This document shows, one piece after another, positions 1,696-32,615 of a DNA stretch of 50,285 nucleotides. Every line of letters begins with the position of its first letter. The stretch's first letter is position 1. The stretch is from the IMG/VR virus record IMGVR_UViG_3300043313_001828, positions 1 to 50,285 of that record, one strand, 5' to 3'. This DNA is from a virus. The translations under genes and the position numbers were made by a program. The notes beneath the pieces were generated by a model that was not told the origin of the DNA, did no database searches, and saw nothing but the letters and a program-made list of their open reading frames with translations.

Positions 1696-2988
1696 TCAAT
1701 ATGTTAATACCGTCCCCGTGCCGAGCGGCGTATGTCCCAGTAGCCAGGGCACCGGACTCGTCTGCCGCTGGTCGCTCAGTTGCAGCGTCACCGTGTGGCC
1801 GGCGATGTCGGCCAGAATGTCGTGCTGGATGCCCTCGATGAACATCATCCGGTCCACGCCCATGTGCGCGGGCTCGCGCTTGACGACGTGGACGGTATTG
1901 CCAAGCTCCAGTGCGAAGAGCGCATCCCAGAACGGGAGTCCTGCCGGGCTGGCATCACCGTCGATGGTGACGGAATGGAGCCGCGCTTGCGGCGTGCGAT
2001 AGGCAGCCAGGAGCGCGTCCGCGAGACAGGCAGCCCGACCAGGGCCGAGGAGGGGGAGGGAGAAGTCCTTGCTGAACAGTCCGAAATAGGTCTGGCTATT
2101 CGTGTCCTCGGCAGTTTGCACACCCTCCTCAGGCACGCCGGTCGCATTCACGGTCACACGGTTCACGAGCGATTGCGTGTTCATGTCATAGTCGAATGAA
2201 TCCGGTGCATAGGGCACCACCTGCGGCACGGGCGCGGTGTTCAACCCCGGCTGGTCGAGGACGTAGCTGGCATTGAACGCGCCGGGACTTTGCCAGCGGT
2301 CATAGCGATTCTGGTAGGTGATGGCACCGTCCCGTGCGTGGAAGACCGCGCCGCGCGTGGCTTCGGTGAGATCACTGAGTGCTTGGGTCGCGGCCACGTT
2401 CACGTAGTCAATCGCCTGGACGGTCTCATAGGAGTTGATGAGGTTGTACGAGAGCGGGAAGCCGAAGCTGCCGACGGCCGCCACGATTGCCGCGAAGGTG
2501 TTGAAGTCTGCCTGGGCGATCTGCGCGAGGGTGATGTTCGTGCGGGCTGCTCTCCCAAGCCAGTCAATGCAGCTCAGCTGCACATTGCCGTCGGCGGGGC
2601 CGTTATCGACGGGCTTGATGCTGTCAATGAAGCCATAGAACAGTGACGCCCAGGGCGCGTTGGCAGCATACTTCGCGCTGATTCTCACTTTCCGCATCGG
2701 CAGGACGTTCGGGTAGTTGAGGCTACTGCCGTAATCGGGGGAGAACTGCCCGTTGGCATTGTTCATGAGGATGGTCGCGGTGCCGGTCTCCATGACGCCG
2801 CTCTCATCGTTGCGGCCGCGTTTGATGCTGGCGCTGATGAAGCCGCTGACCGCCGCCATCGGCAAGTCATTCGGCACGCCCTGGAGGATGGTGCTATGTC
2901 CCAGGTGGGACGTGCCGAGTACCCAGCCCGCGCCGGCATTGGTGATATTCATCTCCACCCGGTAGAGGGGATAGAGCGGCAAGGCCAT
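1696..2988 (-). CDS. Minor tail protein (distal tail / baseplate hub type)
   Basis: 430 aa, directly downstream of the tape measure gene, where siphophages of Gram-positive-type hosts encode the distal tail protein or hub. It is beta-rich. The N-terminal half contains 'SASIKRGRNDESG' and 'FYGFIDSIKPV', typical of minor tail proteins that open with a phage tail-tube-like fold. No enzyme motif was seen. The last codons are AT-rich compared with the gene body and abut HNH A, so the 3-prime end could have been replaced during cassette insertion; no remnant was found. Confidence 0.75.
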   Translation of the reverse strand: MALPLYPLYRVEMNITNAGAGWVLGTSHLGHSTILQGVPNDLPMAAVSGFISASIKRGRNDESGVMETGTATILMNNANGQFSPDYGSSLNYPNVLPMRKVRISAKYAANAPWASLFYGFIDSIKPVDNGPADGNVQLSCIDWLGRAARTNITLAQIAQADFNTFAAIVAAVGSFGFPLSYNLINSYETVQAIDYVNVAATQALSDLTEATRGAVFHARDGAITYQNRYDRWQSPGAFNASYVLDQPGLNTAPVPQVVPYAPDSFDYDMNTQSLVNRVTVNATGVPEEGVQTAEDTNSQTYFGLFSKDFSLPLLGPGRAACLADALLAAYRTPQARLHSVTIDGDASPAGLPFWDALFALELGNTVHVVKREPAHMGVDRMMFIEGIQHDILADIAGHTVTLQLSDQRQTSPVPWLLGHTPLGTGTVLTY

Positions 2989-3003
2989 GCCAGTACTCCT
3001 CGC

Positions 3004-6000
3004 CTATTTCAAGCCGAGCGGTCCTGTTCGACGCTGCTTTGCCAGGAAGCCTTTGTGCAGCGTATCCACCAGTTGTCCCTCAGTGATGACGCTGCCCGCG
3101 ACCTCGACGGTGATGTGGTAGGTGTCTCCGCCAGCGATGCGGCTCCCGGCTCTGTCGAGCGGAATGACGGCCTCCTGCGGATGGAGATGATAGACCCCCT
3201 CGGTTACGGTGATGCCGCCCGTGCGAAGCTGCTGAATCGGTGCCCAGCCTGCCGTGTTCGCGGAGAACTGCGCCGCCTGACTGATGACGCCGATTCCCCA
3301 CGGGCCAGTGCTGATTGCCTGTCCGGGGAGTGGCCCGTTGAGGTCAATGTGCCCGAAGGGAAGGCCGGACCAGTATTGCGCCGTGCCGGGTGGCCCAAAG
3401 CCGGGATGGAGGAGCCCACGGGCTTGCAGGGAGAGGGCTTCCTCGCGGGCACTGTGCGCGCCGGAGCGTCCCAGCCCCAGGACGCCACGCAGATTGTCCA
3501 TGAATCGCAGACACCAGCCGTCCCAGGTCGCTCCGTCCCCACTGAGCATGCCCAGTGCCGCGCGGACCGCTTCATTGCTACCGCCGAAGCCGTCCATCAG
3601 TTTCTTGACGAGGTCGCTGATCGAGTCCTTTGCGAGATCAACGACCTTGCTTGCCAGCCCCTTGCCGAAGCCCGCGAACCCGGCAGGCAAGTCGAGACCG
3701 ACGCCGAACTTCTTCAACGCGGCCTCGAAGAGCGCGCCGCCGCCGTCCTTCACGGCACCGGAGAGGACGTCATAGACCCCGCCGAGGCCGGTCACGTCCG
3801 CGACGGTCTTCACGAAGCTGCCAACATTCGGGAAGTCGCCGTGACCGAGCAGGCGTCCCTCCTCGTCAATCGCGTTCCCCTGCTTGCCGCGATTCCGGAA
3901 CCAGTCAGCCATCCCCGGCATGGCTCCACCCTGGCCAACGCCACCCGCTGCATTGCCGCCGCCGCCGAGACTCGGTGTGCTCGTGTCGGCGTTTATGCTC
4001 GGGATGCTGATCGCGAAGACGTCCTTCCCGGCAATCGCCTGGGTGACGGTGTTGATCGCGGTCTTCAACGTCGTGAGGAAGGCGGTAATCCGGGTGCCGA
4101 TAACGTCAAACGGCTTCATGAAGGGCGCGACAAAGGCCGCCGCTGCCTGCGGCAAGGTGTGGGTGGCAAAGTCCGTGATCCATCCCTGGATCCCCTTGCC
4201 GATCAAGAGGAGTTGCATCTCCAGCCCGTTCGGATTGGAAGGATCGAGGATGTCCTTTGCCCAGCCCATGAATGCCGGCACCCAGGTCGCAATGGCCTTG
4301 GCAATCTCCGGCACGGCGTCCGTCACGACCCAGACGCTGATCTTTGCCAGGAGGTCCTGCAGGCCGATGAGGAGCTTCGGCCAGACGGTGATCGCCCAGG
4401 CAGCAAACTCCCCGGCCCAGCCGGCCATTTTGACGGTCAGGGTCGGGATTTGCTCCGCGACCCACTTGACCATGTCCGCGAAGAGGAGTGCAAGCTCCTT
4501 CAGGAGTCCGGGGATTTTCGGCGCGACCCAGGCGACAAACTCGCCGCCCCAGGCGACCAGCTTGCCGGGGAGTTCCTTGGCACGCTCCCCGATCCAGCCA
4601 AAGAGCTTGAGGGACAGCTCCCCCAGCTCCTTCAAGAGTGGCGGAATATACGGCGCGACCCAGGCAACAAGCTCCTCACCCCACTTCAGGAGGAGGAGGC
4701 CGATCTTGCCGACCGTTGTCAGGAGGAAGGCTTCCAACTGGATGTAGAGCTTGCCGATCTCCTCCAGTAATCCGGGGATCTTCGGCGCGATCCAGTGGAC
4801 GAACTCGTCGCCCCATTTCAGGAGTTTGTCACGAACCTCCGGCGCCTTACTGAGAAGCCACTCATAGAGCTTCGCGGCCAGTCCGCCCAGTGCCTCGACC
4901 ATCGGGCCGATGTGCGGCTTGATGAAGTCAACGAACTGCTCCCCCCACTTGATCAGCTGCGCGCCCACTCTCGGGGCCTGCTCACCGAGCCAGTCAATCA
5001 GCCGTTTGACGGCGTCCAGGATGGGGCTGAAGATGTCCTCAGCGACCTGCTTGATCGCTTCCTTCCGTCCAAAGAGCGTGTCCACGATTTTGAACTTCGT
5101 GATCTCGGCGCGGATCCAGGTCTGCGCGGACTTGATCGCCTCGCCGAAGAGTGGCCCGAGCCGCTTCTGCAACTCGCCACCGATCTGCGATCCAAGCAAT
5201 CCGCCGATCAAGGCTCCGGCAGGGCCGAGGACCGCGCCGCCGATTGAGCCGCCGATGGCCCCGCCGATCAACTGCCCGAAGTGCTGCTTGATGAAGTTTA
5301 TGGCACCCTGGACGATGCTCTCACCGACCTTCATGCCGAGTGCAATGAACTTGTCACTCGCCGTTTCTTCCTTGACGCCCGCGTCAAGTCTGCCGAGGCC
5401 GGTGCCGATTCCCCCCTCAGCCCCGCCCGGAGCTCCGGCTGACCGTGAGCCTGCCTCACCGCGGACCGCGCCGCCGCTCCCCACGGGCTGCGTTCGTAGG
5501 CCGGGACCGTAGTTCGTTGGCAAGCCCCCGGTCTTCCCGGCTGCAGAGCCACCGGCCGCCTTCTTTTGCTCCGCTTCCAGCTGCTGCTGGGCTTTTAGCG
5601 CGTCCTGAAGCGGTTGCAGGGCGTCCTTGATCTCCTGCCCGATCTGATGCCAGTGGGCCTGCTGCCGCTCCAGGACGGAGCGCTGCCGGTCCAGAATGTC
5701 GTACTGCTGCTGGAGCGGATCGATCTTCTCCTGCTCCTCCTTCTTCAGCTTCGCGATCTTCTCCTCCAGTGGCAGGGCCTGGAGGTCTCGGGCAAGAGCG
5801 AGTCCCTTTTCACGGAGACCGATCGTATCCTGCTCCTGCTTATTTTCGTCGATTTTGGACTGAAAGACGGCCTTACGCTGATCGATCTCATTTTTCACCT
5901 GATCGATGCGTGCCTGGAGCGCGCGGCTGGCGTCCGTGTCGCCGTCCTTCTCGGTGCGCTGGCGCTCGCGTAGACCGGCAATCTCATCATTGATCTGTGA

Positions 6001-7803
6001 CCGGCGTCCCTCGCCCTCCTTCCCTGTGGGCACACCGCGCAACTGGCCCTGGAGCGTGGCAATCCGGTTCTCCACGGTCCGGTCAATGGGAGCCGTTCGC
6101 GTGCCGCGCTGCTGGGCAGTGAGCGCGCTGAGAGATGACTGGAGTCCCTTCAACGTCGGGTCGCCCGCCATCTGCTGCGCGAGTTGATTATTGGCGATTT
6201 CCAGCTCCAGGTCGCGCCGTTTCGCCGTCCAGTCCACCACGTCCTTCAACGTGTCAACCTGTCGTTGGAGCGGGTCGATCTGCTGGTCATAGGCATACTT
6301 GATGTCGTCGATTTGATCCTTCAGGATTGACTGGGCATCCTGAATATCGGTGATATGCTCGGCGATGGAGCGCGTCACGTCGTCCACGCCCTCAGCGGCA
6401 ACCTTCAACTCATCCATGCTCAGCGTGCCGCTGCGAATCGCCTCGGTCATCGCCTTGAAATCGACGCTCAGACCCGCGCCCGCCGTGCTGCTCGTCAGTG
6501 CGCCGCTGAGCGTGGCAAAGACACCACCGGCAACATCAGAGACCCCGCCACCCTCCACGGCCTGCTTCATCCCATCGAGGAATGCCTGCATCGTCTTCGC
6601 GCCACCCTCAAGGATGCCGGAGAGCGGTCCCTTGGGGGGCGGTGACTTGCCGATAAAGTAGTCACTGATATAGCCGGTAATGTCATCGAGCGCGCCGGAG
6701 AGGACACCGGTCGCGGCGTCATACATCCCCTTCACGAAGGTGATGATGAAGTTGGCGCCGCCGTCATGCCCGTCAAGGTTGAAGACGCTGAGGATTTTCT
6801 CCTTCATATCGTCCAGGAGGCCGGAGATGCCGCCGTCCTGGAAGAGCTTGAAGAAGCCCCGGACGGCGTCTGCCGCCCGCTGGGCCGCGCTGGACACGGT
6901 TGCGACCCAGCGTTCAAATCGCTCCGTTTGCAGGAAGTCCGCGAACTTGATTGCCCCCTCAGAGATGAGGTCAAAGAAGGGCTTGAAGGCACGCGCACCG
7001 GCGCTCTGGAGCGTGTCCTGGATGGTGGACATGGCACCGTTGAACGTGCGACTCTGCGCGCCCATCACATCACCGAAGCGACCGGTGTAGGTCTCAAAGG
7101 CGGCAATGAAGTCCTGGCTCGACAGGATGCCCTTCTTTGCGTCCGCGGCGATCTGCTCTGTCGTCCGTCCACTCTGCTGGGCCATGATCGCGAAGACGTC
7201 ATTCACCTTGACGCCCGCTTCCGTCAGCTGCAGAAGCTCGTCGCCCGATACCTTCCCCTTCGCCTGCATCTGGCCGAGCGCGATGGTGAGGCGATTGATC
7301 TGTTCCGTGCTGCCGCCCATGAGCGCGGCCTGATTGCCGACTGCCGTCAGGAGGGGAAGTACCTGCTCGGCGGAGAAACCAAAGGCTAGCATCCGCTGGG
7401 ATGCCGTGGTCAGCTCACCGAACTTGAAGGGGGTCTTGTTGGCAAAGTCCGAGAGTTGACGCAGGAAGACGTCAGCCTGCTTGGCACTGCCGAGCATGTT
7501 CGTGAACGCGGTGCGATTCTGCTCCAGCTGGGCGTTGAAGTCAATGAAGCTGCCCTTGACCGCGCCCATGACATTGCCGAGCGCGTTCATTGCCGCGTGC
7601 AGGGCAGTGATCGCGAGTGTCAGGCTGACGACGGTGCCCAGGTGCTGCTTGAGTCCCGCGAGTGCGCCGCCGAGCGTCCCCAGTCCCTTGCTTGCCTCGT
7701 TCCCGGCACCCTTCAAGGTGTCCAGGGAGCGCGTCGCATTCTGCAGGACAGCGCTGGCCTCGTCCTTTGCCCGGACGGTGATTTCTGCGGCACTTCCGGG
7801 CAT
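3004..7803 (-). CDS. Tail tape measure protein with C-terminal hydrolase-like domain
   Basis: 1599 aa, setting tail length and probably helping DNA entry. The N-terminus (AEITVRAKDEASAVLQN) and the region to about residue 250 match the TP901-type core. Residues about 500-750 are charged coiled coil. About 870-920 is a Gly/Ala-rich hydrophobic stretch (GGAIGGSIGGAVLGP). About 940-1185 holds tandem Trp-rich repeats. Around 1420-1500 is a WC...GHID pattern like a CHAP/NlpC-type module, resembling the second domain of the endolysin here. The start ATG 7803 has GGGAGGGG just upstream. It follows the chaperone frameshift ORF, the usual order. The C-terminal 55 residues are paralogous to the small gene at 10918. 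Confidence 0.92.
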   Translation of the reverse strand: MPGSAAEITVRAKDEASAVLQNATRSLDTLKGAGNEASKGLGTLGGALAGLKQHLGTVVSLTLAITALHAAMNALGNVMGAVKGSFIDFNAQLEQNRTAFTNMLGSAKQADVFLRQLSDFANKTPFKFGELTTASQRMLAFGFSAEQVLPLLTAVGNQAALMGGSTEQINRLTIALGQMQAKGKVSGDELLQLTEAGVKVNDVFAIMAQQSGRTTEQIAADAKKGILSSQDFIAAFETYTGRFGDVMGAQSRTFNGAMSTIQDTLQSAGARAFKPFFDLISEGAIKFADFLQTERFERWVATVSSAAQRAADAVRGFFKLFQDGGISGLLDDMKEKILSVFNLDGHDGGANFIITFVKGMYDAATGVLSGALDDITGYISDYFIGKSPPPKGPLSGILEGGAKTMQAFLDGMKQAVEGGGVSDVAGGVFATLSGALTSSTAGAGLSVDFKAMTEAIRSGTLSMDELKVAAEGVDDVTRSIAEHITDIQDAQSILKDQIDDIKYAYDQQIDPLQRQVDTLKDVVDWTAKRRDLELEIANNQLAQQMAGDPTLKGLQSSLSALTAQQRGTRTAPIDRTVENRIATLQGQLRGVPTGKEGEGRRSQINDEIAGLRERQRTEKDGDTDASRALQARIDQVKNEIDQRKAVFQSKIDENKQEQDTIGLREKGLALARDLQALPLEEKIAKLKKEEQEKIDPLQQQYDILDRQRSVLERQQAHWHQIGQEIKDALQPLQDALKAQQQLEAEQKKAAGGSAAGKTGGLPTNYGPGLRTQPVGSGGAVRGEAGSRSAGAPGGAEGGIGTGLGRLDAGVKEETASDKFIALGMKVGESIVQGAINFIKQHFGQLIGGAIGGSIGGAVLGPAGALIGGLLGSQIGGELQKRLGPLFGEAIKSAQTWIRAEITKFKIVDTLFGRKEAIKQVAEDIFSPILDAVKRLIDWLGEQAPRVGAQLIKWGEQFVDFIKPHIGPMVEALGGLAAKLYEWLLSKAPEVRDKLLKWGDEFVHWIAPKIPGLLEEIGKLYIQLEAFLLTTVGKIGLLLLKWGEELVAWVAPYIPPLLKELGELSLKLFGWIGERAKELPGKLVAWGGEFVAWVAPKIPGLLKELALLFADMVKWVAEQIPTLTVKMAGWAGEFAAWAITVWPKLLIGLQDLLAKISVWVVTDAVPEIAKAIATWVPAFMGWAKDILDPSNPNGLEMQLLLIGKGIQGWITDFATHTLPQAAAAFVAPFMKPFDVIGTRITAFLTTLKTAINTVTQAIAGKDVFAISIPSINADTSTPSLGGGGNAAGGVGQGGAMPGMADWFRNRGKQGNAIDEEGRLLGHGDFPNVGSFVKTVADVTGLGGVYDVLSGAVKDGGGALFEAALKKFGVGLDLPAGFAGFGKGLASKVVDLAKDSISDLVKKLMDGFGGSNEAVRAALGMLSGDGATWDGWCLRFMDNLRGVLGLGRSGAHSAREEALSLQARGLLHPGFGPPGTAQYWSGLPFGHIDLNGPLPGQAISTGPWGIGVISQAAQFSANTAGWAPIQQLRTGGITVTEGVYHLHPQEAVIPLDRAGSRIAGGDTYHITVEVAGSVITEGQLVDTLHKGFLAKQRRTGPLGLK
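4250..4990 (-). repeat. Tandem Trp-rich repeats inside the tape measure protein
   Basis: About six imperfect repeats of roughly 40 residues, each with a core like 'KWGEEFVAWVAPKIPGLLKE'. They encode amphipathic helices with regularly spaced Trp. Tape measure proteins often carry such repeats, and their number would alter tail length. Boundaries are approximate. Confidence 0.7.
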
Positions 7804-17264: not shown

Positions 17265-17426
17265 CTATTGCGTCAGCAGCAGGCCGAGACTGACGAAGAA
17301 GAGCGCAAGCGTCAGGACGCGCGGATGCCACGCCGCGAACGGTTCTCCCGCCCAGCCGAGGAGGAAGGCGAGGGCGAGGATAATCGCCGCGATGGCGAAG
17401 CAAATGCCAGCTTTGGTCGTACTCAC
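17265..17426 (-). CDS. Small two-helix membrane protein
   Basis: 53 aa from GTG 17426, overlapping the portal stop as GTGA and preceded by GAAGGAG. Two hydrophobic segments (ICFAIAAIILALAFLLGW and VLTLALFFVSLGLLL) suggest an inner-membrane hairpin. Its position between portal and protease is unusual for a membrane protein. Function unknown. Confidence 0.65.
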   Translation of the reverse strand: MSTTKAGICFAIAAIILALAFLLGWAGEPFAAWHPRVLTLALFFVSLGLLLTQ

Positions 17427-18919
17427 GGGTTCGTCTCCTTCTGCCCATCGGGTGCCCTCTGGGCGGGTGGCGGTTGCTGTGGTCCATCCTGCGCGCCGGG
17501 CTGCGTCATCACCGACGGTTGCGCCGCACGCTGCTGCAACTGGATCAAATCCCCCTCGGAGCGCGCGCCCATGCCGAGCATGCGATCCGCTTCGGGCAAC
17601 TGCGACGGGCTGAGGGTGTAGCCGACGCTCGAGAATGCCTGGATCATCGCGTTGACATCCTGCGCCTCTACCGCGCCAAGGGAGGCCGTCGGCACCAAAT
17701 GGTCGGCATTGGCGAAGTTGTAGCGAACCAGGGGGGTGAGGATGTCGCGACGGAGCATCCGGCAGACCCACTCTTTGTACTCGAGGATGATCTGTCCCAG
17801 GATGTCCTGATGCACAGCGGCCTGCGCCCGCGATGCGTGCTTCCCCTCATTGATTGCCAGCGTCTGGACGATGACGGCCTTCGCCATCTCGCTGTTGAAG
17901 AACTCGAACGCCGCGAGGTAGACATCGCCCCCGGTGCCCGCCTGCGGCTGAATAGCGGTCAGAGTCGCGCCGAAGGGGAGGACGATGTACGAGCCGTTCT
18001 GAAAGCCCGCGACCGCCGTGCCCAGGTATTCCTGCGCCGTCATCATCACCGTGCCCGTGCTCGTCGCCACGGGGACATCCTGCGCACTCTCTCCCACCGT
18101 CGCGACAACGGACGGGGTGGCGAACTGCGCGAGATACCGCTGGTAACTGAGGAGTGCTTGCACTTTGAGATTCCACGCGCCATAGGCGGGACGCAGGACC
18201 GAGCGGCCGCGCGGATCGCCGTCCTGCGGCTCGTGGGTGAGGACGGCGAACTTCTCGCGCGGCAGGATGTTCGGGATGTCCTTCGGGTCGCTGGAGACCG
18301 CCGAGGGGATGATGCCGATCGCCTGTCCGGGTCGCTGGCCGAGGAGGCCGATCACATTGTTGAACGGGTCGACGAGGAATGCCGTCGACCGTCGCGGCTT
18401 GACCTTCAGGGCGGTGAGGACGAGTTGATTCTCTCGCAACGCATAGATCTGTTCCGCGACCTTGCTGCCCATTGTCAACGCATCGAGGAGATTGCGCAGC
18501 ACATCCTCGATCGGCGTCGTCAGGTTCGCCATCACCTCTGTGCAGAAGTCCTTGATCTCCTGGGCCTGTTTGAAATCCGCCTCCGCTTCGTCCGCGACGG
18601 GCGAGGCGAGCGAGACGCCCTCGCTGAGGATGGCGGACTTGAGGAGGCGCATGATCGCGGCAATCTGCCCGTCGCGCTGCATCCGCTCGTAGATGTCGTC
18701 CGAGAGTTCGGACGTGAGATCGTCGATCGCGTGCGGCAGCGTGCGCAGGACGTTGCCCGCGAGATAGCGTGCGTTGGCAACATACTCATCGGTGGCGACG
18801 GCGCGCAACTGGACAACGTTGCCTGCTTTGCCGGGCATCGTCGTGCCGCTACCGGTCTGCGGCGACACGCTCCCGACGCGCACGGTGGATGTGATGTCCT
18901 TCGGCTTCGCTGCGGGCAT
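17423..18919 (-). CDS. Portal protein (DUF935 / Mu gp29-like)
   Basis: 498 aa. 'YERMQRDGQIAAIMRLLKSAIL', 'DALTMGSKVAEQIY' and 'FAAFEFFNSEMAKAVI'-type motifs are characteristic of DUF935 portals, and the C-terminus is Gln/Pro-rich. It forms the dodecameric ring through which DNA is packaged, and lies just after terL. The gap upstream is filled by the nested palindromes, leaving AGGATG 9 nt before ATG as its SD. Confidence 0.85.
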   Translation of the reverse strand: MPAAKPKDITSTVRVGSVSPQTGSGTTMPGKAGNVVQLRAVATDEYVANARYLAGNVLRTLPHAIDDLTSELSDDIYERMQRDGQIAAIMRLLKSAILSEGVSLASPVADEAEADFKQAQEIKDFCTEVMANLTTPIEDVLRNLLDALTMGSKVAEQIYALRENQLVLTALKVKPRRSTAFLVDPFNNVIGLLGQRPGQAIGIIPSAVSSDPKDIPNILPREKFAVLTHEPQDGDPRGRSVLRPAYGAWNLKVQALLSYQRYLAQFATPSVVATVGESAQDVPVATSTGTVMMTAQEYLGTAVAGFQNGSYIVLPFGATLTAIQPQAGTGGDVYLAAFEFFNSEMAKAVIVQTLAINEGKHASRAQAAVHQDILGQIILEYKEWVCRMLRRDILTPLVRYNFANADHLVPTASLGAVEAQDVNAMIQAFSSVGYTLSPSQLPEADRMLGMGARSEGDLIQLQQRAAQPSVMTQPGAQDGPQQPPPAQRAPDGQKETNP

Positions 18920-18934
18920 GGGCGATCATCCTGT

Positions 18935-19099
18935 TTGGAAACCCTTTGCCGATCCTTGACCCGATGCACGAGTGGAAGACCCTTTGCATGTGACAGTACC
19001 GGCTGTACACGGCAAAGGGTCTTCCAACCGTCTCTCAGCGGTACGCGGCATCGGGTCAAGGATGTAGCGTCTCCACGCTCACATGCAAAGGGTTTCCAA
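18935..19099. repeat. Three nested palindromic elements
   Basis: Three perfect inverted repeats sit one inside another. Outer arms are 18935-18949 / 19085-19099 (TTGGAAACCCTTTGC), middle 18952-18967 / 19048-19063 (ATCCTTGACCCGATGC), inner 18973-18987 / 19012-19026 (TGGAAGACCCTTTGC). The inner loop ATGTGACAG...CTGTACACG matches the loops of the elements at 25746 and 32397. The middle and outer loops are similar sequences split by the next insertion. They fill the whole terL-portal gap. Confidence 0.9.
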
Positions 19100-21781
19100 C
19101 TACTGGCGAAAGGCGGCGGTGGGGCGGGCGTTGCCGGAGATAGCGACAGCAGATGGCGGCTGGCGGATCACAAGGAACGCCTGCACCACCGCATCCCCGG
19201 CGTCCGTCGAACGCTCCAACCGCTTCGCGATCTGCTCTTTGGATTCGATCTGTATCTTGCCGTTACTGGCAACTTTCCAGTGTGGCGCGGTCAAGTCTCC
19301 CGTCAACACATCATCCGGTGGCAGCGCCACCGTTGGGCCATAGGTAGGGTCAAGACGCTCTCGCATCCCCCACCAGACTTCGGCGCGCATATTGATGAAT
19401 CCGAGCTCGCCCGTCCGGTCGGTCGCGTCGGAATGCTCGGAGGCGATGAAGGAATGAATCCGCTCGCGTTTGAACATCTCCCGAAGACGACTGACGACGC
19501 CCGCACCGATTCCGATGCCATCCACCACCGCGTAGGCTTTCGGGTGACGATTCAGGAGTCCCGCCACTCTCCCTGCGGTCTCCATCGTCTCCTCTTTGGC
19601 CGTGTAGCGCAGGGTGTCGATGGAATCGCCGTAGCGGGGCGCTTGTACGGTCCTATCAGTACCGCTATCTGAGACATCTACACCAACACAAGTGAGAACA
19701 TCGCTACCAGGCTTGCCCGCATCTTCCCACTGACGCCAGCGGTCATTGGCGGCCTCGACCCACGCGAGGGGAATGACGCCATCCTCATCGGATGATGCGA
19801 ACTCGCCTTCGACGCGGTTCTGGTAGACCGCCGAGTCCTCGCCCCATTGCCGCTTGCGCTGCTCGGCCCACTCCGACGAGATGCGCCCTGCACCTATCGC
19901 CTCTTCTTTTGTCACCCGCCGCACATGCCAGTCCTCATAACCGGGCTTGCGCGATTGGATGTCATAGAAGCGACCCTGCGGTTCGCCGGGCGTCGAGTTG
20001 GCGATCGCGAACGCCTCGCGCGGCGTATCCTCACCCGCGCCGGAGAACGCGCCCTCCGCCGCGTCGAAGGTCTCGGCGGGAATCGTCTTTGACTCGTCGA
20101 AGAGGTAGAGGAGCGCATCGGCGTGCGCCCCCTCGATCGTCGCCACATTGTTCGATGCGACCGCGAACGCCTCACCCGTCGCCAGGCGGAGCGAGAGCGT
20201 GTGCAACTCGGTGCGTCCGCTATACGGCGACCGACCGATCAGGTCCCACCGGAGCGAGCGCGCCCACTTGTGCACCTCCGGCCAGAGGAACTTGGTCAGT
20301 TGCCGCCAGGCGGAGGCGGTCGTCGGCAGCTTCCAGTCCTCGCCGTCCCGGGTGAGCGCGAACCAGTGGATCACCCACGCGTCGAAGGCGGTGTTGTGCT
20401 CGACAAACTCGGTCAGGAATGTCTCGACGCCGGGCACCGTGATCGCCACCGTGGGCTGATTCTCAATGACGCGAAGCGATGAGACACGCTCCCATGCGAG
20501 GTGTGTTGGCAGGTTCGCGCCGCGCCACTTTTGTTGCTCTTTGACTGACCGCGACCGACACTGCGCCGCGAGTGCGTCAACCTGCGTCTCTTTGCCGAAG
20601 ATGCCGACATGCTCGGTAAAGCGCAGGATGTTGGGGGCATCGTGGATCGCGACGGTATGTGCCGCCCCGAACCGTCGCTCCCCGGCGTGCGTCCACGCGG
20701 TTTTCTTTGTCCGCGTCTCTGCATGGACACCGAGACGCAAGAGCGCACGCGACGTGTCCCGTGCGAGCATCGCGCTTGTCGTCGTGAGACCGATCTCATT
20801 TCGTGCTTTGCCGCTCGTGCCGACACCGGAATGCGCCCAACCATCGCAGGCGAATAGCCGCGAGATGAACATTGCCAACTGCCGGTTGTCCAACCGCCAC
20901 ACCCATGCAGGGAAACACTTGTCGTGTGCTCCGACGCCGCGCATCCCCCATGCGCTCACAAGATCGCGAACCGGATTCTTGTACTTCCCCGAACCACGAA
21001 TACCCTTGGTGACGATTCGATAGTCGTACCGATCTATGTACCGCAGTTCAGCACCGAGCGCATCGCAACACGCGCGAATCTCGTCCAGACTTGCGCCTTC
21101 GACTTGCGTGATCCGTAAATTGCCGCCTGTCGTGTTGCCGTCACCGATCAGGTATGCCGCGAGTTTGATCGCCTCATCGCTCATCGCCAGTGGTTCACAC
21201 GTCTCGGTACCGAGATAGACCGCAACCGCTGAACCGATGGTTAGTTCGCCCGCCGCGATCCATGACCCTTCGGGCCGCAGTCGCATGCTGTATTCCGGCT
21301 TGCTGTAACGCAACGGCGTCGTATCTGCCCAGAGCGGATGATTGAGCGTCCGCGTCAGCACTCGGCCCTTATCGGTCGTGATCTCCACCACGTCGCGCGC
21401 ACCGTTATCCCACGCATGAGCGCGGGCGGTGACGACCCGCAAATCCTTGTCCACCGCCAGCACGTCGAACGACTTGCCGATCAGTTCATGGGCTTCAACT
21501 ATGCTCCCGTCCGCGAGTCTCATGCCATCATTATAACATACGCACTTACCGATGCCGTGCGGGCCGCGAAACGAGATGCGCTGGTAGCGGATCAGATCGT
21601 CCAGTAGCTCGAGCTGGTAGTCGGTCGGTCCCTTCCCCTTCGGGAAATGGATGCAGTCGAGGACGAAATCGACGGCGCTATCCCGGTACTTCTCCTGGAA
21701 CTCCCGGTACGGCTCCGTCTTCGCCGTCAGTGCCGCCAGCCGTGCCGCTTCCCGCTGTTCCTCTTCCGTCCGCCGGCGCAT
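19100..21781 (-). CDS. terL: Terminase large subunit, split by an intein
   Basis: 893 aa from ATG 21781; the frame is open to 21913, but earlier starts overlap terS by more than 200 nt. ATPase and nuclease motor that packages DNA. The Walker A motif GPHGIGK is interrupted after its Lys by a 384-aa intein; splicing would join it to T-AFDAWVIHWF. Walker B is LLYLFDE. Nuclease motifs are GVDVSDSGTD, VDGIGIGAG and STDAGDAVV. Thr is the +1 nucleophile. Without splicing the P-loop would be broken, so packaging depends on the intein. Confidence 0.9.
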   Translation of the reverse strand: MRRRTEEEQREAARLAALTAKTEPYREFQEKYRDSAVDFVLDCIHFPKGKGPTDYQLELLDDLIRYQRISFRGPHGIGKCVCYNDGMRLADGSIVEAHELIGKSFDVLAVDKDLRVVTARAHAWDNGARDVVEITTDKGRVLTRTLNHPLWADTTPLRYSKPEYSMRLRPEGSWIAAGELTIGSAVAVYLGTETCEPLAMSDEAIKLAAYLIGDGNTTGGNLRITQVEGASLDEIRACCDALGAELRYIDRYDYRIVTKGIRGSGKYKNPVRDLVSAWGMRGVGAHDKCFPAWVWRLDNRQLAMFISRLFACDGWAHSGVGTSGKARNEIGLTTTSAMLARDTSRALLRLGVHAETRTKKTAWTHAGERRFGAAHTVAIHDAPNILRFTEHVGIFGKETQVDALAAQCRSRSVKEQQKWRGANLPTHLAWERVSSLRVIENQPTVAITVPGVETFLTEFVEHNTAFDAWVIHWFALTRDGEDWKLPTTASAWRQLTKFLWPEVHKWARSLRWDLIGRSPYSGRTELHTLSLRLATGEAFAVASNNVATIEGAHADALLYLFDESKTIPAETFDAAEGAFSGAGEDTPREAFAIANSTPGEPQGRFYDIQSRKPGYEDWHVRRVTKEEAIGAGRISSEWAEQRKRQWGEDSAVYQNRVEGEFASSDEDGVIPLAWVEAANDRWRQWEDAGKPGSDVLTCVGVDVSDSGTDRTVQAPRYGDSIDTLRYTAKEETMETAGRVAGLLNRHPKAYAVVDGIGIGAGVVSRLREMFKRERIHSFIASEHSDATDRTGELGFINMRAEVWWGMRERLDPTYGPTVALPPDDVLTGDLTAPHWKVASNGKIQIESKEQIAKRLERSTDAGDAVVQAFLVIRQPPSAVAISGNARPTAAFRQ
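20393..21544 (-). mobile_element. LAGLIDADG intein in terL Walker A
   Basis: 384 aa, starting Cys (CVCYNDGMRLADG) and ending VEHN before Thr. Block B TRTLNHPLW carries the conserved His, and block G ends in the usual His-Asn. Two DOD motifs, LAAYLIGDGN and ISRLFACDG, mark a probably active homing endonuclease. The first codons include an AT-rich TTATAATGATGG stretch unlike the flanking terL DNA. P-loop insertion is a known favoured intein site in terminases. Confidence 0.92.
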
Positions 21782-22184
21782 CCACTCCAGTTGATCCGCC
21801 TCTGGCCATAGGTGCCGAAGCCGCAAGGAAGGCGGCAAGGTCGAGCCTGACCCCCTGCGTCTCCGATTGGAGGTACTTGAGCCAGTCGAGGATGTCTTTG
21901 TCGCTCTGGACATCCTCGTCGTCCTTCACCCGCTGGGCAATGATGCGCTTGACGAGGCGGACCCGCGCGGCTCGACTACCAAGGCCGACCATAAAGGTGA
22001 GCTTGTCCACCTCAGCGGAGAAATCCGGGTGCTGCATCCACCGCGAAACGGTCTTCTCGTTAATGTCCAACGCCTCGGCGACCGCGCGCTGCGTCTGCCC
22101 ATCCGCGAGGGCAATGGCGGCAAGGGTTCGCGTCTCCGTCCACTTGAACGGTTGGTGCTCCTGCGGTGCCTCATTTTCGGACAT
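21678..22184 (-). CDS. terS: Terminase small subunit
   Basis: 168 aa. The N-terminal helix-turn-helix (IALADGQTQRAVAEALDINEKTVSRWM) is typical of DNA-recognising TerS proteins, followed by a helical oligomerisation region (LGSRAARVRLVKRIIAQRV). The Gly/Pro-rich tail lies in the part that overlaps terL by about 100 nt or more in another frame, so the true end or the terL start deserves checking. First packaging gene of the late operon. Confidence 0.75.
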   Translation of the reverse strand: MSENEAPQEHQPFKWTETRTLAAIALADGQTQRAVAEALDINEKTVSRWMQHPDFSAEVDKLTFMVGLGSRAARVRLVKRIIAQRVKDDEDVQSDKDILDWLKYLQSETQGVRLDLAAFLAASAPMARGGSTGVDAPADGRGTAGSGTAGGTDGEDGAVPGVPGEVPG

Positions 22185-23147: not shown

Positions 23148-23425
23148 CACTGCAATCCTTCCTGTCGCTCCAACTCCTCCCGAAATGCGTCCGCCCGGAT
23201 GCGGCGCGCCGTCTCGATCGCCATGCTGCCCTGAGGGCTCCCGGGGTCGGGCAGCGCCGCGGGTGCGGACGCGGACTCACGGCACATCGCCGTCACCGCG
23301 AGCGCCACGACGATGAGCGTCAGGGCGACGCCGAGCCGCGTGTCGAGCCGCCACGTCCGATAGAGCGCGTATCCACTCGCACCGAGGGCGACGAGCGATG
23401 CCAGGCCATGAATCCGCTTACGCAT
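23147..23425 (-). CDS. Small membrane protein
   Basis: 92 aa from ATG 23425, overlapping the end of HNH D. Two hydrophobic helices ([14 protein letters not shown] and [16 protein letters not shown]) are followed by a charged C-terminal helix ([18 protein letters not shown]). Possibly an early superinfection-exclusion or host-takeover membrane protein; unproven. Confidence 0.6.
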
Positions 23426-23987
23426 GACCGATCTCCTCCCAAAGGGGCAGCGTGGGCGCATTCACCGCATCGCCGTGATCGTCCGGGAAGTTCAGGATCG
23501 CAAACTCCCCATGGATGCGTCGCGCCGCCGCGTCGTAGGCGCGAGCAGCCTCCTCGCGCGTGGTGAACGTGCCAAGCCGCACGATGCGATTGTTTACCGA
23601 GATGCTCGCCCGCCACTTCCCGCCCCTCGGAACTGACCCCACGCCGCGGAAGCCGCTCTTTGACGGCTTCTTCCGAGCATTGGCTGCGTTTTGCGTCCGA
23701 TCTGCCAGACGGATGTTGCACCTGCGGTTGTCGAGCCCGTCGTGGTTCTCGTGATCCACCAGCACGCCCGGAGGCGCGCCGAGGAGAAAACGGTGCATCC
23801 GCATCGTCTGCGGCTTCGGCGATCCGGGAACGTGGAACCACGTCGCCGCATAAAACCCGCCGCATGCACTGTTGGCGGGATAGGGGCTCCACCGATATTT
23901 CGACACGCGCTCGTAGTCCTCTTCGTCAATGAGCGCAAAGAGCCCGGGATACTTGCGGCTGTGCAGGGGAATGCGGACAATGCCCAT
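23418..23987 (-). CDS. HNH homing endonuclease D with AP2 domain
   Basis: 189 aa from ATG 23987 with GAGGAGG 6 nt upstream. The HNH core ([34 protein letters not shown]) precedes an AP2 DNA-binding domain ([33 protein letters not shown]). The AP2 and HNH combination is typical of phage homing nucleases. The last 15 residues ([14 protein letters not shown]) look like a relict end of the upstream TGT-like gene rather than nuclease. Close relative of HNH F. Confidence 0.92.
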
Positions 23988-24720: not shown

Positions 24721-25244
24721 CAGCGCCATGACCTCCCATGCACGATGTCGCCTATCGTCGAGGGCCAGACGCTAAACTCAGCCGCCAAGTCCTTTTCCAT
24801 TTCGCCTGCCTCGCGCCGGCGTCGAATCTCCTCCACTTGCGCGCGGGTCAACTTCGCCCCTTGATTGCGCTCCCCGATAGCGCCATTCGCGCGGCCCTTC
24901 TCTTGGCAGTCGAGCCGATTGTCTGCATTCGTCCCCGTGAAGAAGTGCGCGGGGTTGACGCATTTCCGGTAGTCGCAGCGGTGGCAAACGTTCAGGCCAT
25001 CCGGCACGGGGCCGTTGGCAATGTGGTAGGAAACGCGGTGTGCTAACCGGGTCGCGCGCGTGCCATCCGTCTGCGAGCCGACGATGAACATGCCGTATCC
25101 ATTGGGGTTGATATACCCCGTCCACTCCCAGCAGTGACCGAGTTCGGGGCAATGCGCGGGGATCGGGCCGTCTTTGTTGACCTTCGCGAAGAAGCGCGCG
25201 AGTAGTGACGGCGTGACGGCAAAATGGGTAGACTTGGAATGCAT
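24720..25244 (-). CDS. HNH homing endonuclease E with C-terminal HTH
   Basis: 174 aa from ATG 25244, SD GGGAGG. HNH_3-type core: CWEWTGYINPNGYG, RLAHRVSYHIANGPVPDG, CHRCDYRKCVNPAHFFTG, with invariant NADNRLDCQEKGR. A C-terminal helix-turn-helix follows (LTRAQVEEIRRRREAGEM ... VWPSTIGDIVHGRS), probably for DNA recognition. Its TGA overlaps the ATG of the TGT-like gene. Same family as HNH G, H and I. Confidence 0.92.
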   Translation of the reverse strand: MHSKSTHFAVTPSLLARFFAKVNKDGPIPAHCPELGHCWEWTGYINPNGYGMFIVGSQTDGTRATRLAHRVSYHIANGPVPDGLNVCHRCDYRKCVNPAHFFTGTNADNRLDCQEKGRANGAIGERNQGAKLTRAQVEEIRRRREAGEMEKDLAAEFSVWPSTIGDIVHGRSWR

Positions 25245-25745: not shown

Positions 25746-25802
25746 TCGGTTAACCCGATGCCGTGTACCGCACTCCACGGTCACATGCATCGGGTCAACC
25801 GA
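25746..25802. repeat. Palindromic element, copy 2
   Basis: Arms 25747-25761 (CGGTTAACCCGATGC) and 25787-25801 (GCATCGGGTCAACCG) pair with one mismatch. The core, read on the minus strand, is ATGTGACCG...CGGTACACG with inner stem ACCG/CGGT. It lies in the short gap between two early genes. Same family as 18935-19099 and 32397-32451. Confidence 0.85.
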
Positions 25803-28079: not shown

Positions 28080-28935
28080 TGCCTCTTTCCTCCATCGCCG
28101 CGTACCGCGCGGCGTCGGCCTCGACCGATCCGAGAATGCGGGCGTTCTTCGCCTCCGCCCGTTCGAGGCTCGTCGTGGGTGAGCCACGGGCCCCGCGGCC
28201 CGTAGCGGGCGCGGGTGCCCTCTGGGCGGCATGGGCAGCATCGCGTTTCAGGTAGTCCCGCGCCCACGCTCGCAGGTCCGGCAGCCAGTCGGCACGGCTG
28301 CGCCCCTCCGCCAGTCGGCGGTCCGCCCACTGCGGGATGATTTCGCTCGCCAGCTGTTCGGGCGTCGTCCCGATGGCCGTGGCCTGGGTGGCGAGGTCGG
28401 CGTCAGAAAGCTGAGGAAAAGCCGGGGCGAACCGCTCGCTCGCGCGCGGGCGCTCGCGTGTGGGTGCGCCCGCGGGGGAGTTAATCTCTCTCTCTGGTAT
28501 TCTTAATGGGTCTTGTTCAGTGGGTCTTGTTAATTGGGTCTTGTTCCGGTCTCGGAGCGGAACTAGTTCCGGTCTCGGAGCGGAACTAGTTCCGGTCTCG
28601 ATTTGAGACTGGTTCTGATTCGAGACTAGTTCCGGTTTGGGACTAGTTGAGACCGTGACAATGTGATAACAGTTGCTCGCCCGCTTGCCTGACGTGATCG
28701 TCACGAGGCCCGCGTCAACGATTTTCTTGATCGCGGTCGCCACTTGGCTCCGGCCGCAGCCGAGCTCGCTTTGCAGCTTGCTGTACGAAGGCCAGGAGTC
28801 GCGCTCGCCGTTCGCGTGGCGCACAATGCAGGCATAGACTGAGAAGGCCGTCATGCCGATCTTCGGCAGATATTCATCAATGACCTCGTTATCGATGTGA
28901 AACCAGCCGCGTTCGCGATCGTCTACGATCCTCAT
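27964..28935 (-). CDS. Replication initiator / winged-helix DNA-binding protein
   Basis: 323 aa from ATG 28935. The N-terminal winged helix (MTAFSVYACIVRHANGERDS, SYSKLQSELGCGRSQVATAI) is the type found in phage replication initiators. The middle is low-complexity, encoded by the iteron-like DNA at 28508-28655. The C-terminal domain is helical (LPDLRAWARDYLKRDAAH). As with lambda O, the origin is probably inside this gene. Confidence 0.65.
   Translation of the reverse strand: MRIVDDRERGWFHIDNEVIDEYLPKIGMTAFSVYACIVRHANGERDSWPSYSKLQSELGCGRSQVATAIKKIVDAGLVTITSGKRASNCYHIVTVSTSPKPELVSNQNQSQIETGTSSAPRPELVPLRDRNKTQLTRPTEQDPLRIPEREINSPAGAPTRERPRASERFAPAFPQLSDADLATQATAIGTTPEQLASEIIPQWADRRLAEGRSRADWLPDLRAWARDYLKRDAAHAAQRAPAPATGRGARGSPTTSLERAEAKNARILGSVEADAARYAAMEERGNGTPDVRTGNGAHAGALPAGDRTGDEGPVVDIPERHAR
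28508..28655. repeat. Iteron-like repeat array inside the initiator gene, candidate origin
   Basis: Three GGGTCTTGTT repeats (28508-28517, 28522-28531, 28535-28543 approx.) are followed by two direct copies of a unit of about 23 bp containing the palindrome GGAACTAGTTCC (28559-28570, 28582-28593), then further half copies (ACTAGTT, GAGAC) to 28655. The region is AT-richer than its surroundings. Placement in a rep gene is the lambda-type origin layout. Confidence 0.6.
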
Positions 28936-28997: not shown

Positions 28998-31190
28998 CTA
29001 GCTCTGTGCTGACTCGCCCTCCGGTCCCGCCTCGCGCACGATGGGCGCGCCGTCGCCCGTGTACGCGACGACGAGCCTGCCCTCGAAGATGCCGATCAGT
29101 TGGTCGTAGTCTGCTTTTGTGAGCACGTAGAGGGAGACCTCGCCGCGGGCCGGGTCGAGCTTGTCCGGATGGAGGAGGTGCATCGTTTCGCGCTTGGCGT
29201 CCTTGGTCCAGCCCTCATCACTGCCGGTCGCCCAGAAGAGGGCGATCTGCTGCGCGTTCGGCTTCCACGGCTCGATGCGCTCCGCAGGCGGCGCGGGCAC
29301 GGGCTCCGATTGCGATGGAAGGGGTGCCGATGGGGTGACCACGCCTGTGCTCCTCACCTCCTGGCGTCCGGTGATGATGAGCTCTTTCGCCTGCTCCAGC
29401 GTCAGGCTCTCGATGTGATCCACGCCCAGGGCGGCGAGTCGGTCTGCCAGCGGATAGCCCTTGTCAGCGAGCGCGCGCAGCTGGGCGTGCTGGTGGAGAT
29501 TGGAGCGTGCAGGCGTGGGTGGTGCGGCGATCTTCCCGTCCACGATCTCACCGGCAGCGATCGCCGCGGGGCGCACGGCCGTCGCACGCCGGGGCCGCTC
29601 CTCGTTCTCCGCCTGCCCCATCTCCTCCTCGGTGTAGATGCCCCGCGTCTCGTTCGGGAAGGCGGCCCGGATTGCCTGACTCTCGGCGCAGTTGCCGCAG
29701 AGCATTGAGAAGCCGTGCCGACGTACCACGATCACGCCGGAGGGAACCGTGACGCACCAGACGCGCCCGCCCGCGTTGGGCTGCAACTCAAGGCCTGGGT
29801 GCTTGCGCGTGGTCGTCTGCGGATTCGGGTTGTGATACTCGCGACCCCATCGCACCACGGGAATATCGTCACGCCCGCTGATGGTGACGTGGTAATTCGG
29901 CTGCGCGCTGATGTCTGACCAGCGCGCGGTGCGCTGGCTGACCGCGTACCCCGCGATGACCGCAGCGAGCTCGAAGGCCTCGATGTGATCGGGCCGTGAC
30001 GAGTAAAAACGCCGGACGCCCGTTCGCTTGTTCGTGCTGCCGTCGAACGCGACCAGTGTATCGATCAGCAGCCGCGCCTGGTCACGGTTGAGGGAGAGCA
30101 CCGCATCCCGACCGATGCGCTTCCCCTCATCGCAGAGGTACGCAACTGCCGCGCGCGGATAAGAGAATCGCATCTTGTCCAGCCGCGTTGTGATCGTCCG
30201 CGCCGGCGTGACGGCCACCGCACCTGCCGCAGCGCGGCGCGTCTCTGCGATGTAGCTGCCGATCTCGCGGAGTCGCGCGACCTTTCCGGGACGCGATACC
30301 TCCACCGCGATCGTCCTGCCCGGGCGATCAGTGCCGTCCGCGAGGTAGGCGGCACTGATGGCAATCTCCGTATCCGTCACCGGTGCGGCGGATTTGAGCG
30401 TCGTGACGAGACGCGGGATGCGAAACATGGCGCGGGTGCGCGCCCGCTCGTACATCACGCCCGCCTCGATCTTCCCTGCCGTTGTCACCATGTCGTGATT
30501 CGGCGTGACGCTGAAATTCAGATCGTCACTGTCGAGCGTCACCATGTCGCCGTTGTACGCTTGCACGAAGGGGCGTGCATTCGTCGGTTCCAACCCCCTA
30601 GCCGTCACTTGCAGCACGCGCCCTGTCACCGCGTTGAAGGGTTGGAACCCCTGATCCGTGAGGACTTCCGTGTCCTCGCTGAAGCACTTGGCGAGCATGT
30701 GATCCGGCATCTTCTTCCAGAGCGAGACCGGGTTGCCCTCCCGGTCGGTCTGGACGAAAGCGTCGTAGCGGACCGTCGCCCAGAGGGTTTCTGACCAGTC
30801 CGTGCGTTTGACGCCGACACGCGCGGCGACGGGCGGATCGCTCTTCAGCCAGACATCGGTCCAGACACCGTCCGCGCCGCACCAGTACGGCCCGATCCTG
30901 CCGGCATATATACCTGTCCGCTCGGCGATCAACCGGTACCCATTGATCGACGTCTGGATCCGCAGAGCTTCCTCCCAGTTGCCCTGCGCGTTCTTCACCC
31001 GTTGCTTGATGGGATAGAACTGCTTGTCGAAGAGCGAGAGGCCGGTGCGTCGCTCCACCGCGGCGACGAAGTCCAGTTCGACGTCCGTCAATCCCGGTGC
31101 GATGCCGTTCCGGATTGCCTGGAGCTCATCGCCGAAGACCTCGGCGGCGAGCGCGCCGGCCTCGCGAGTGACCAGTGCGTCACTTGCCAT
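28998..31190 (-). CDS. recT: RecT/Bet-type single-strand annealing protein, split by an intein
   Basis: 730 aa precursor, SD AAGGGAC. The N-extein (FDKQFYPIKQRVKN, SINGYRLIAERTG) and the junction MLAK-CAESQAIRAAFPNE are classic Bet/RecT sequence. The C-extein adds a long linker and a region 'ALFWATGSDEGWTKDAKR'. It anneals single strands in phage recombination. Splicing of residues 169-500 would leave a protein of about 398 aa; unspliced it would lack a continuous annealing core. Confidence 0.85.
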   Translation of the reverse strand: MASDALVTREAGALAAEVFGDELQAIRNGIAPGLTDVELDFVAAVERRTGLSLFDKQFYPIKQRVKNAQGNWEEALRIQTSINGYRLIAERTGIYAGRIGPYWCGADGVWTDVWLKSDPPVAARVGVKRTDWSETLWATVRYDAFVQTDREGNPVSLWKKMPDHMLAKCFSEDTEVLTDQGFQPFNAVTGRVLQVTARGLEPTNARPFVQAYNGDMVTLDSDDLNFSVTPNHDMVTTAGKIEAGVMYERARTRAMFRIPRLVTTLKSAAPVTDTEIAISAAYLADGTDRPGRTIAVEVSRPGKVARLREIGSYIAETRRAAAGAVAVTPARTITTRLDKMRFSYPRAAVAYLCDEGKRIGRDAVLSLNRDQARLLIDTLVAFDGSTNKRTGVRRFYSSRPDHIEAFELAAVIAGYAVSQRTARWSDISAQPNYHVTISGRDDIPVVRWGREYHNPNPQTTTRKHPGLELQPNAGGRVWCVTVPSGVIVVRRHGFSMLCGNCAESQAIRAAFPNETRGIYTEEEMGQAENEERPRRATAVRPAAIAAGEIVDGKIAAPPTPARSNLHQHAQLRALADKGYPLADRLAALGVDHIESLTLEQAKELIITGRQEVRSTGVVTPSAPLPSQSEPVPAPPAERIEPWKPNAQQIALFWATGSDEGWTKDAKRETMHLLHPDKLDPARGEVSLYVLTKADYDQLIGIFEGRLVVAYTGDGAPIVREAGPEGESAQS
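29691..30686 (-). mobile_element. Intein in the RecT gene
   Basis: 332 aa from Cys (CFSEDTEVLTDQGF) to GN just before Cys of the C-extein. Block B is SVTPNHDMVT. The end VVRRHGFSMLCGN has Gly in place of the usual penultimate His, a variant known in some phage inteins. AAYLADGT and LVAFDGST are LAGLIDADG-like and somewhat degenerate, so endonuclease activity is uncertain. Confidence 0.88.
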
Positions 31191-32143: not shown

Positions 32144-32367
32144 GGCATGCGTCCGGCATGTGCGAGGATGACGGCGACGACGAGCGTGATGAGGCCGATC
32201 ATGGCAATGGCTGACAGCCCGAGCACCATCCGGGTCGTGTGCGCTGGCGCGGGTTCGCCGTCGTCGTACCCGGCGCCGCCCGCATGCGCGATCGCGGCCG
32301 GTCGCCAGCCGGTCGCCGCGTCGATGTCGGCCTGGGTGAGGGTGCGCGCCCTATCGTTCATACTCAT
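32134..32367 (-). CDS. Small single-pass membrane protein
   Basis: 77 aa from ATG 32367, overlapping the preceding TGA (ATGA). N-terminal 'TLTQADIDAATGW', then one C-terminal transmembrane helix (MVLGLSAIAMIGLITLVVAV) ending AGRMPWA. Tail-anchored topology is likely. Function unknown. Confidence 0.55.
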   Translation of the reverse strand: MSMNDRARTLTQADIDAATGWRPAAIAHAGGAGYDDGEPAPAHTTRMVLGLSAIAMIGLITLVVAVILAHAGRMPWA

Positions 32368-32615
32368 CGCTGCACCCGCCCACGCGGTCCGGCGAGTGAT
32401 GAACCGTTTGCATGTGACCGTTCATTGCGGTACACGGCAAACGGTTCATCATGCACTGGCGGCGCGATCGTCCAGGCGAGGAGACGCGCGGCGTGCGCCG
32501 TCACCATCCCCGGTGTCACCTCATTGATCGGCACGTCGTACCACTCCGCGGTCAGCCGAATCAGTTCGGCGTCCGGCGATTGCTTGTTCGGTTGTTCCTG
32601 GTCGTCCCATATCAT
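32364..32615 (-). CDS. Small early protein whose 3-prime end contains a palindromic element
   Basis: 83 aa from ATG 32615 (ATGA overlap with the preceding gene). The N-terminal 55 residues look normal ('LIRLTAEWYDVPINEVTPGM'). From about residue 55 the codons are the palindromic element at 32397-32451, read as HDEPFAVYRNERSHANGSS, followed by a basic tail. The element appears to have inserted and extended or replaced the C-terminus. Confidence 0.55.
   Translation of the reverse strand: MIWDDQEQPNKQSPDAELIRLTAEWYDVPINEVTPGMVTAHAARLLAWTIAPPVHDEPFAVYRNERSHANGSSLAGPRGRVQR
32397..32451. repeat. Palindromic element, copy 3
   Basis: Perfect 15-bp arms TGATGAACCGTTTGC (32397-32411) and GCAAACGGTTCATCA (32437-32451) around ATGTGACCG...GCGGTACACG with inner stem ACCG/CGGT. 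The core is nearly the same as in the copies at 18988 and 25762; the arm sequence differs. Confidence 0.88.

Follow-up and report, generated by a model that had tools for sequence, protein, structure and literature searches.

We describe here a new family of mobile hairpin elements, of which about 30 phage contigs together carry about 75 distinct copies and for which no phage counterpart was found in the literature searched. The elements are about 54-59 bp long, and several dispersed copies are present in the longer contigs. We consider it fairly probable that they are non-autonomous mobile DNA elements, each consisting of one perfect hairpin, for which we propose mobilisation in trans combined with template switching. 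The carriers are phage contigs, in which portal, capsid and RecT genes are found, and not organellar DNA.

The window, by which we mean the whole stretch of DNA analysed (50,285 bases), is a virus record whose genes include those for a portal protein (17423-18919), RecT, HNH endonucleases and a serine recombinase. The gap between the portal gene and the preceding gene is almost entirely taken up by a nest of three elements, and two intact elements lie further along:

18935-19099, minus strand: outer element, with perfect 15-bp arms at 18935-18949 and 19085-19099
18952-19063, plus strand: middle element, with perfect 16-bp arms at 18952-18967 and 19048-19063 (ATCCTTGACCCGATGC)
18973-19026, plus strand: inner intact element, with perfect 15-bp arms at 18973-18987 and 19012-19026
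25746-25802, minus strand: intact element, with 16-bp arms containing one G.T mismatch
32397-32451, plus strand: intact element, with 15-bp arms

An earlier note on this DNA had reported three perfect inverted repeats of 15, 16 and 15 bp lying one inside another, and our analysis recovered them in that order. Its two other matches to the inner core within the window are the intact copies at 25746-25802 and 32397-32451, and the splits that it had described in the middle and outer cores could be located precisely. The core of the outer element is split by the middle element at a position that we call site A (CG^GTAGCG), with 1 nt of the core missing, while the inner element sits exactly at site B of the middle core (ACGAG^ACCGTCTCTCAGCGGTACGCG). 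The core of the inner element reads ATGTG-ACAG-TACCGG-CTGT-ACACG, that of the 25746-25802 element ATGTG-ACCG-TGGAGTG-CGGT-ACACG, and that of the 32397-32451 element ATGTG-ACCG-TTCATTG-CGGT-ACACG. The pattern GCATGTGA-N6-20-GTACACGGC, which represents this core, matches the window at three places (18986+, 25760- and 32410+) but none of 100 shuffles. Folding as single-stranded DNA, one of the checks that had been proposed, gave strongly negative z scores for the three intact copies (-9.0, -6.7 and -7.9) and for the 165-nt nest (-14.6). The 25746-25802 element lies 1 bp from the end of the adjoining gene call. The small ORF call at 32364-32615, which runs across the 32397-32451 element, is doubtful, because its match in G011 also overlaps an element.

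Further copies, for which the earlier note had asked, were collected by a pattern scan of IMG/VR, which returned 39 stretches, four of them (L008, L036, L037 and L038) chance matches without complementary arms and the others carrying the element; two more scans brought in further variants and contigs. The collection held 69 unique entries, or 68 after a spurious entry from G029 was dropped, and a later tally over all loci gave 74. A covariance model built from 60 copies distinguishes the members, which score at least 43 bits on the proper strand, from other sequences. It detected no element in G029, a phage related to that of the window, whose portal protein is 41% identical. No true copies were found in 84,980 bacterial and archaeal genomes: the exact pattern had 0 matches in the genome contigs, and the 11 matches to a relaxed pattern all had non-complementary arms. 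A covariance search of 6 genomes only, which is weak as a test, was also empty. The window locus had no match among phage and plasmid records, and no true copy was found in those compared with the nest. In some copies from G010 (L053:13718-13803 and L055:7398-7483) and G018 (L062:6318-6403), the core is enlarged to 54 nt and a further small hairpin lies within it (in G010, GACGCAGGC...GCCTGCG); this may belong to a second hairpin family that inserted in the loop. In another carrier phage, L065:3221-3398 is a run of TGGCAGAATCTGCC-type palindromes, whose relation to the hairpin core is not evident.

The consensus fold consists of an arm of 15-17 bp ending in TGC/GCA, three base pairs of the form YGW/WCR, a bulged G, an inner stem of 4 bp and a loop of mostly 6-8 nt. 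Between the arm and the YGW/WCR pairs, an unpaired purine (A) faces an unpaired CG. The structure computed by RNAalifold is the same as that read from the covariation. The YGW/WCR pairs vary as TGT/ACA, CGT/ACG, CGA/TCG and TGA/TCA, and the inner stem as ACCG/CGGT, AGCG/CGCT, ACAG/CTGT, ACGG/CCGT, ACTG/CAGT and others, so that the inner-stem covariation seen by the earlier note in five copies is real and extends to a much larger set. The named structure pairs 98.0% of cells, as against 69.0% in shuffled alignments and at most 42% when the structure is slid, and 352 cells are double-changed versus 93 after shuffling. The covariation score is 0.702 (0.153 shuffled, at most 0.164 slid), a value that none of 500 shuffles reached. 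Both sides change at 19 of the 23 pairs, the remaining four being invariant. The register GTG/CAC, preferred by the DNA energy model for the core, was rejected, since the covariation fits YGW/WCR instead. In columns 9-11 of alignment A3, changes from C-G to G-C are far commoner than changes from C-G to T-A (at columns 9 and 10, 21 G-C versus 2 T-A), a pattern that would fit a need for strong pairs regardless of strand.

The arms are almost free in sequence. The 59 distinct arms differ on average at 6.1 of 14 positions, yet within elements 944 of 952 arm pairs are Watson-Crick. Their outer ends are variable, and the proposed tendency to end in ACCCnnTGC did not survive the larger sample: TGC is the sole constant part, and the three bases that precede it are CCC, GGG or mixtures. 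The invariants lie in the core, namely the bulged G21, the unpaired C41 and one G-C pair, with A17 and G42 present in at least 90% of copies. We read the covariation, together with the conserved unpaired bases, as a sign that the element is probably recognised in its folded form, and the selection on a folded form for which the earlier note had argued is upheld by this larger set.

Element-free alleles, which that note had suggested looking for, were found, some of them in phages 99-100% identical. Taken with the further copies, they mean that neither of the outcomes named by the note as refuting its reading was obtained. The 56-bp element at L011:515-570 is absent, with an exact junction, from L005, L010, L041, L030 and L019, the flanks being 99.5-100% identical. 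The element at L009:5103-5156 has an exact empty site in L033, L026 and L024, and that at L090:474-530 has one in L057. In L124, L049 and L021, 2-3 bp of the target were lost, and in L018 one base was gained at the insertion. The whole arm-core-arm unit is thus cleanly present or absent, either exactly or with 1-3 bp of target lost, and none of the full and empty sites compared had a target duplication. At many more gene pairs than those with exact empty sites, the intergenic gap in relatives is smaller by one element length (60 to 9-16, 64 to 8-9 and 63 to 11 bp). G010 carries identical 54-bp copies at 49852 and 53325, in opposite orientation and with unrelated flanks. No target motif was seen beside the arms, where base composition is near flat. 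At L059:16621-16853, two near-identical elements (TTGGATCACCCGATGC) lie about 120 bp apart beside a duplicated stretch, which was possibly produced by element-mediated duplication.

With respect to the asymmetric box (ATGTG...ACACG), copies are found with the inner stem-loop facing either way. Flipped loop pairs include CCAGAA/TTCTGG, CACTCCA/TGGAGTG, TCTCCA/TGGAGA and CCGGTA/TACCGG, and near-matching loops numbered 37 after reverse complementing versus 32 in the same orientation, with only 1 after reversal and 0 after complementing. Template switching between inverted repeats makes the arms identical and inverts the spacers (PMC8604942). In our reading, the flips and the perfect arms point to folding of the DNA into a hairpin or cruciform in vivo as it replicates. 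Both traits show hairpin formation rather than transposition chemistry, and template switching without a dedicated enzyme could suffice to produce them. Such switching might even have made and spread the palindromes by itself, with neither dedicated recognition nor transposition, and perfect arms, strict pairing and inverted loops are indeed its known products (PMC8604942; PMC8794818). We regard this as unlikely. Neither arm is present at the empty sites, an observation that excludes copying of the arms from the target at insertion and means that the palindrome was not built from local sequence. Moreover, unrelated phages show little or no variation in the unpaired bases and in TGC/GCA, and identical 54-bp copies occur at unrelated sites.

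Nesting recurs in other carriers, at the following places:

G018, 17537-17701: nest with two insertions
G018, 19284-19423: nest
G018, 23354-23466: nest
G018, 24765-24877: nest
G016, 2794-2909: nest
G016, 17751-17864: nest
G011, 2930-3039: nest
G017, 5981-6090: nest
L097, about 3154-3268: nest, with the insertion in an arm

Most nested insertions fall at a few core positions. Site A lies beside the CG, lacks 1 nt of the core every time and receives arms starting with ATCCTT or ATCTTG; site B, which separates the box from the inner stem, receives TGGAAG or TGGAGA arms; and site C, opposite site B, receives GGGAA arms. This association between arm type and site may reflect a target preference, or composite elements moved as a unit. 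About 10 insertions (by hand count) are in cores, which make up 0.3% of all DNA (P about 1.6e-13), and the enrichment is weaker against the 2.7% share of cores in non-coding DNA (P about 3.5e-5), both values assuming independent copies, although G016:2812 and G018:17555 may be one locus by descent. Elements insert preferentially into each other's core. The earlier note had proposed repeated insertion of the element into its own loop: insertion into its own kind stands, but the loop is not the main site. In the window the nested insertions lie not in the terminal loop but at the junctions of box and inner stem in the core, the inner element at ACGAG^ACCG and the middle one next to the CG dinucleotide. 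One insertion, G018:24790, is in a loop.

An HUH (Y1) transposase acting on folded single-stranded DNA was considered as the mobilising enzyme, in which case the palindromes would be REP/REPIN-like or derived from IS200/IS605. REP/REPIN sequences mobilised by TnpA-REP are small palindromes too, recognised as folded DNA through a functionally needed bulge (PMC8266576, PMC3733652); in E. coli REP the bulge must be unpaired for TnpA-REP activity (PMC8266576), and the absence of target duplication also suits such an enzyme. However, REP/REPIN sequences belong to prokaryotic chromosomes and carry a GTAG or CGTC tag, with conserved stem positions in E. coli (PMC8266576, PMC3733652). TnpA-REP reads the tetranucleotide together with these stem positions, whereas the arms of the phage hairpins are free, and neither a GTAG/CGTC tag nor a fixed target tetranucleotide was seen in their near-flat flanks. 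The Y1_Tnp profile had no match in the 23 carrier records, which are possibly fragments, although a control search was positive in 5 of 14 genomes. We think this origin improbable, although a Y1 enzyme might act in trans. The Phage_integrase profile matched 3 of the 23 records and the HNH_3 profile 8, and no protein cluster is common to all carriers. An autonomous long version with a gene between half-elements was sought and not found within 8 kb in the contigs examined. Given that the carriers have no candidate enzyme in common, the mobilising enzyme may be host-encoded. As to the identity of the host, portal and RecT relatives are distant, and the third query, a ParB/methylase-like gene, was uninformative.

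The conserved, covarying fold would also be expected of a structured RNA, such as a hairpin at phage transcript ends that serves in termination, processing or regulation, with selection acting on the RNA fold. The location of the elements fits as well, with 49 of 64 copies between genes or at gene ends, where 72% of random placements fall inside genes. Orientation does not, since 33 copies lie with the nearest gene and 31 against it. RNA helices usually tolerate wobble pairs, but only 4 G.U cells occur outside the outermost pair, as compared with more than 330 double changes. The near absence of wobble pairs and the lack of bias to gene direction favour a DNA rather than an RNA form. In addition, the asymmetric conserved internal loop would give a different RNA from each strand, several copies have cores interrupted by insertions, the elements show exact presence/absence polymorphism, and no Rfam covariance model matched at gathering thresholds. 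A structured RNA is thus a very unlikely explanation.

Integron attC sites offer an analogy, and only that: their folded strand is recognised by a tyrosine recombinase through extrahelical bases, which the conserved unpaired bases within a variable stem recall (PMC3053210). The attC sites move cassettes lying between two sites and not the hairpin, while here the hairpin itself moves, and a phage integrase is present in so few of the carrier records. The attC recombination boxes lie at the outer ends of the hairpin, which in the phage elements are free in sequence. That the elements are attC-like sites is accordingly hard to credit. An assembly artefact or chance palindromes can be all but dismissed, since, even though nearly all sources are metagenomic contigs, one fold and core recur across many separate IMG datasets, overlapping contigs carry identical copies, the covariation is far above its controls and the shuffles lack the core pattern.

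For a non-autonomous mobile hairpin, we propose the following course. The element would extrude as a hairpin or cruciform, probably while the phage replicates, and a trans-acting protein, from the host or another phage, would recognise the bulged core (R17, G21 and C41-G42) and excise or copy the hairpin. Its flush paired ends might then be joined into a break or gap, a step that would lose 0-3 bp. Template switching inside the hairpin would keep the arms complementary despite sequence drift, and would invert the inner loop. Nicking or opening of core bulges by the same protein may draw new insertions to resident cores, giving nests like that of the window. The elements are most likely selfish and found at gene junctions because insertions there are survivable in compact genomes. 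More tentatively, the family may represent a transposable element whose definition lies almost wholly in its fold: its termini would have no fixed sequence, its self-complementary arms would be nearly free, a few unpaired core bases would be recognised, and the folded strand would be moved by an enzyme with structure-guided self-targeting. If this were true, the chemistry would be distinct from that of the DDE, HUH, tyrosine and serine recombinases and of retro-elements.

Concerning known systems, no named family with this core appeared in the literature searched, and the earlier note had known of none. The phage hairpins show neither the target site duplication nor the conserved terminal inverted repeats of a DDE-derived MITE. 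They share with organellar mobile hairpins their short (10-100 nt) dispersed repeats, presence/absence polymorphism and nesting. The short palindromic repeats of Volvox carteri mitochondrial and plastid DNA are, in the part of their description drawn on here, intergenic hairpins of about 50 nt, believed to be selfish and often nested, with loops (5'-TAAA-3' or 5'-TTTA-3') that are reverse complements of each other (PMC2670323). The phage hairpins resemble them, as far as that part goes, in size, intergenic position, nesting and inverted loops. The Volvox repeats belong to eukaryotic organelles, however, and the same part of the description contains no conserved bulge, unpaired bases or empty-site series (PMC2670323). 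In the repetitive, mobile hairpin elements of sponge mtDNA, the stems are conserved and the loops vary (PMC2800124), whereas in the phage family, conversely, compensated changes make the stems variable around a fixed core. The double-hairpin elements of Allomyces mtDNA are mobile and, as cited in PMC2800124, reported without flanking duplications; the phage hairpins, mobile and lacking target duplications, are alike in this. Yeast mitochondrial GC clusters (GC42) are short palindromes that are mobile, show presence/absence polymorphism, and merge and shuffle, but they differ in having a conserved sequence and flanking AG or ACT repeats that look like target duplications (PMC4478555). By analogy, the phage hairpins appear to work like organellar mobile hairpins, the nearest kind, although we do not file them as members, and there is a real chance that their mechanism is new.

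Although the mobile hairpins of mitochondria and chloroplasts were first described decades ago, there is no agreement on how they move. The phage family provides a compact system in which swap mutants could test whether the fold alone is the mobile unit, owing to its exact empty sites, sharp fold, invariant unpaired bases, replaceable arms and inverted loops. The hairpins are also a source of very short and precise insertions at gene junctions, which ordinary annotation misses.

Other features of the window deserve mention. The RecT homologue (28998-31190, minus strand, 730 aa) has its RecT match split between residues 21-173 and about 499-549, which suggests an intein or another large in-frame insertion in the annealing protein. 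A 937-aa ORF (19100-21913, minus strand) directly before the portal gene contains a LAGLIDADG_3 domain at residues 345-437 and, judged by its position, is perhaps a large terminase with an intein. Overlapping palindromic repeats (GGTCTCGGAGCGGAACTAGTTCC) cluster at 28540-28643, a possible operator or origin whose relation to the hairpin family is not evident. Finally, six HNH_3 endonuclease matches, a high load for one phage record, and two AP2 domains are spread over several places between 23682 and 46264.
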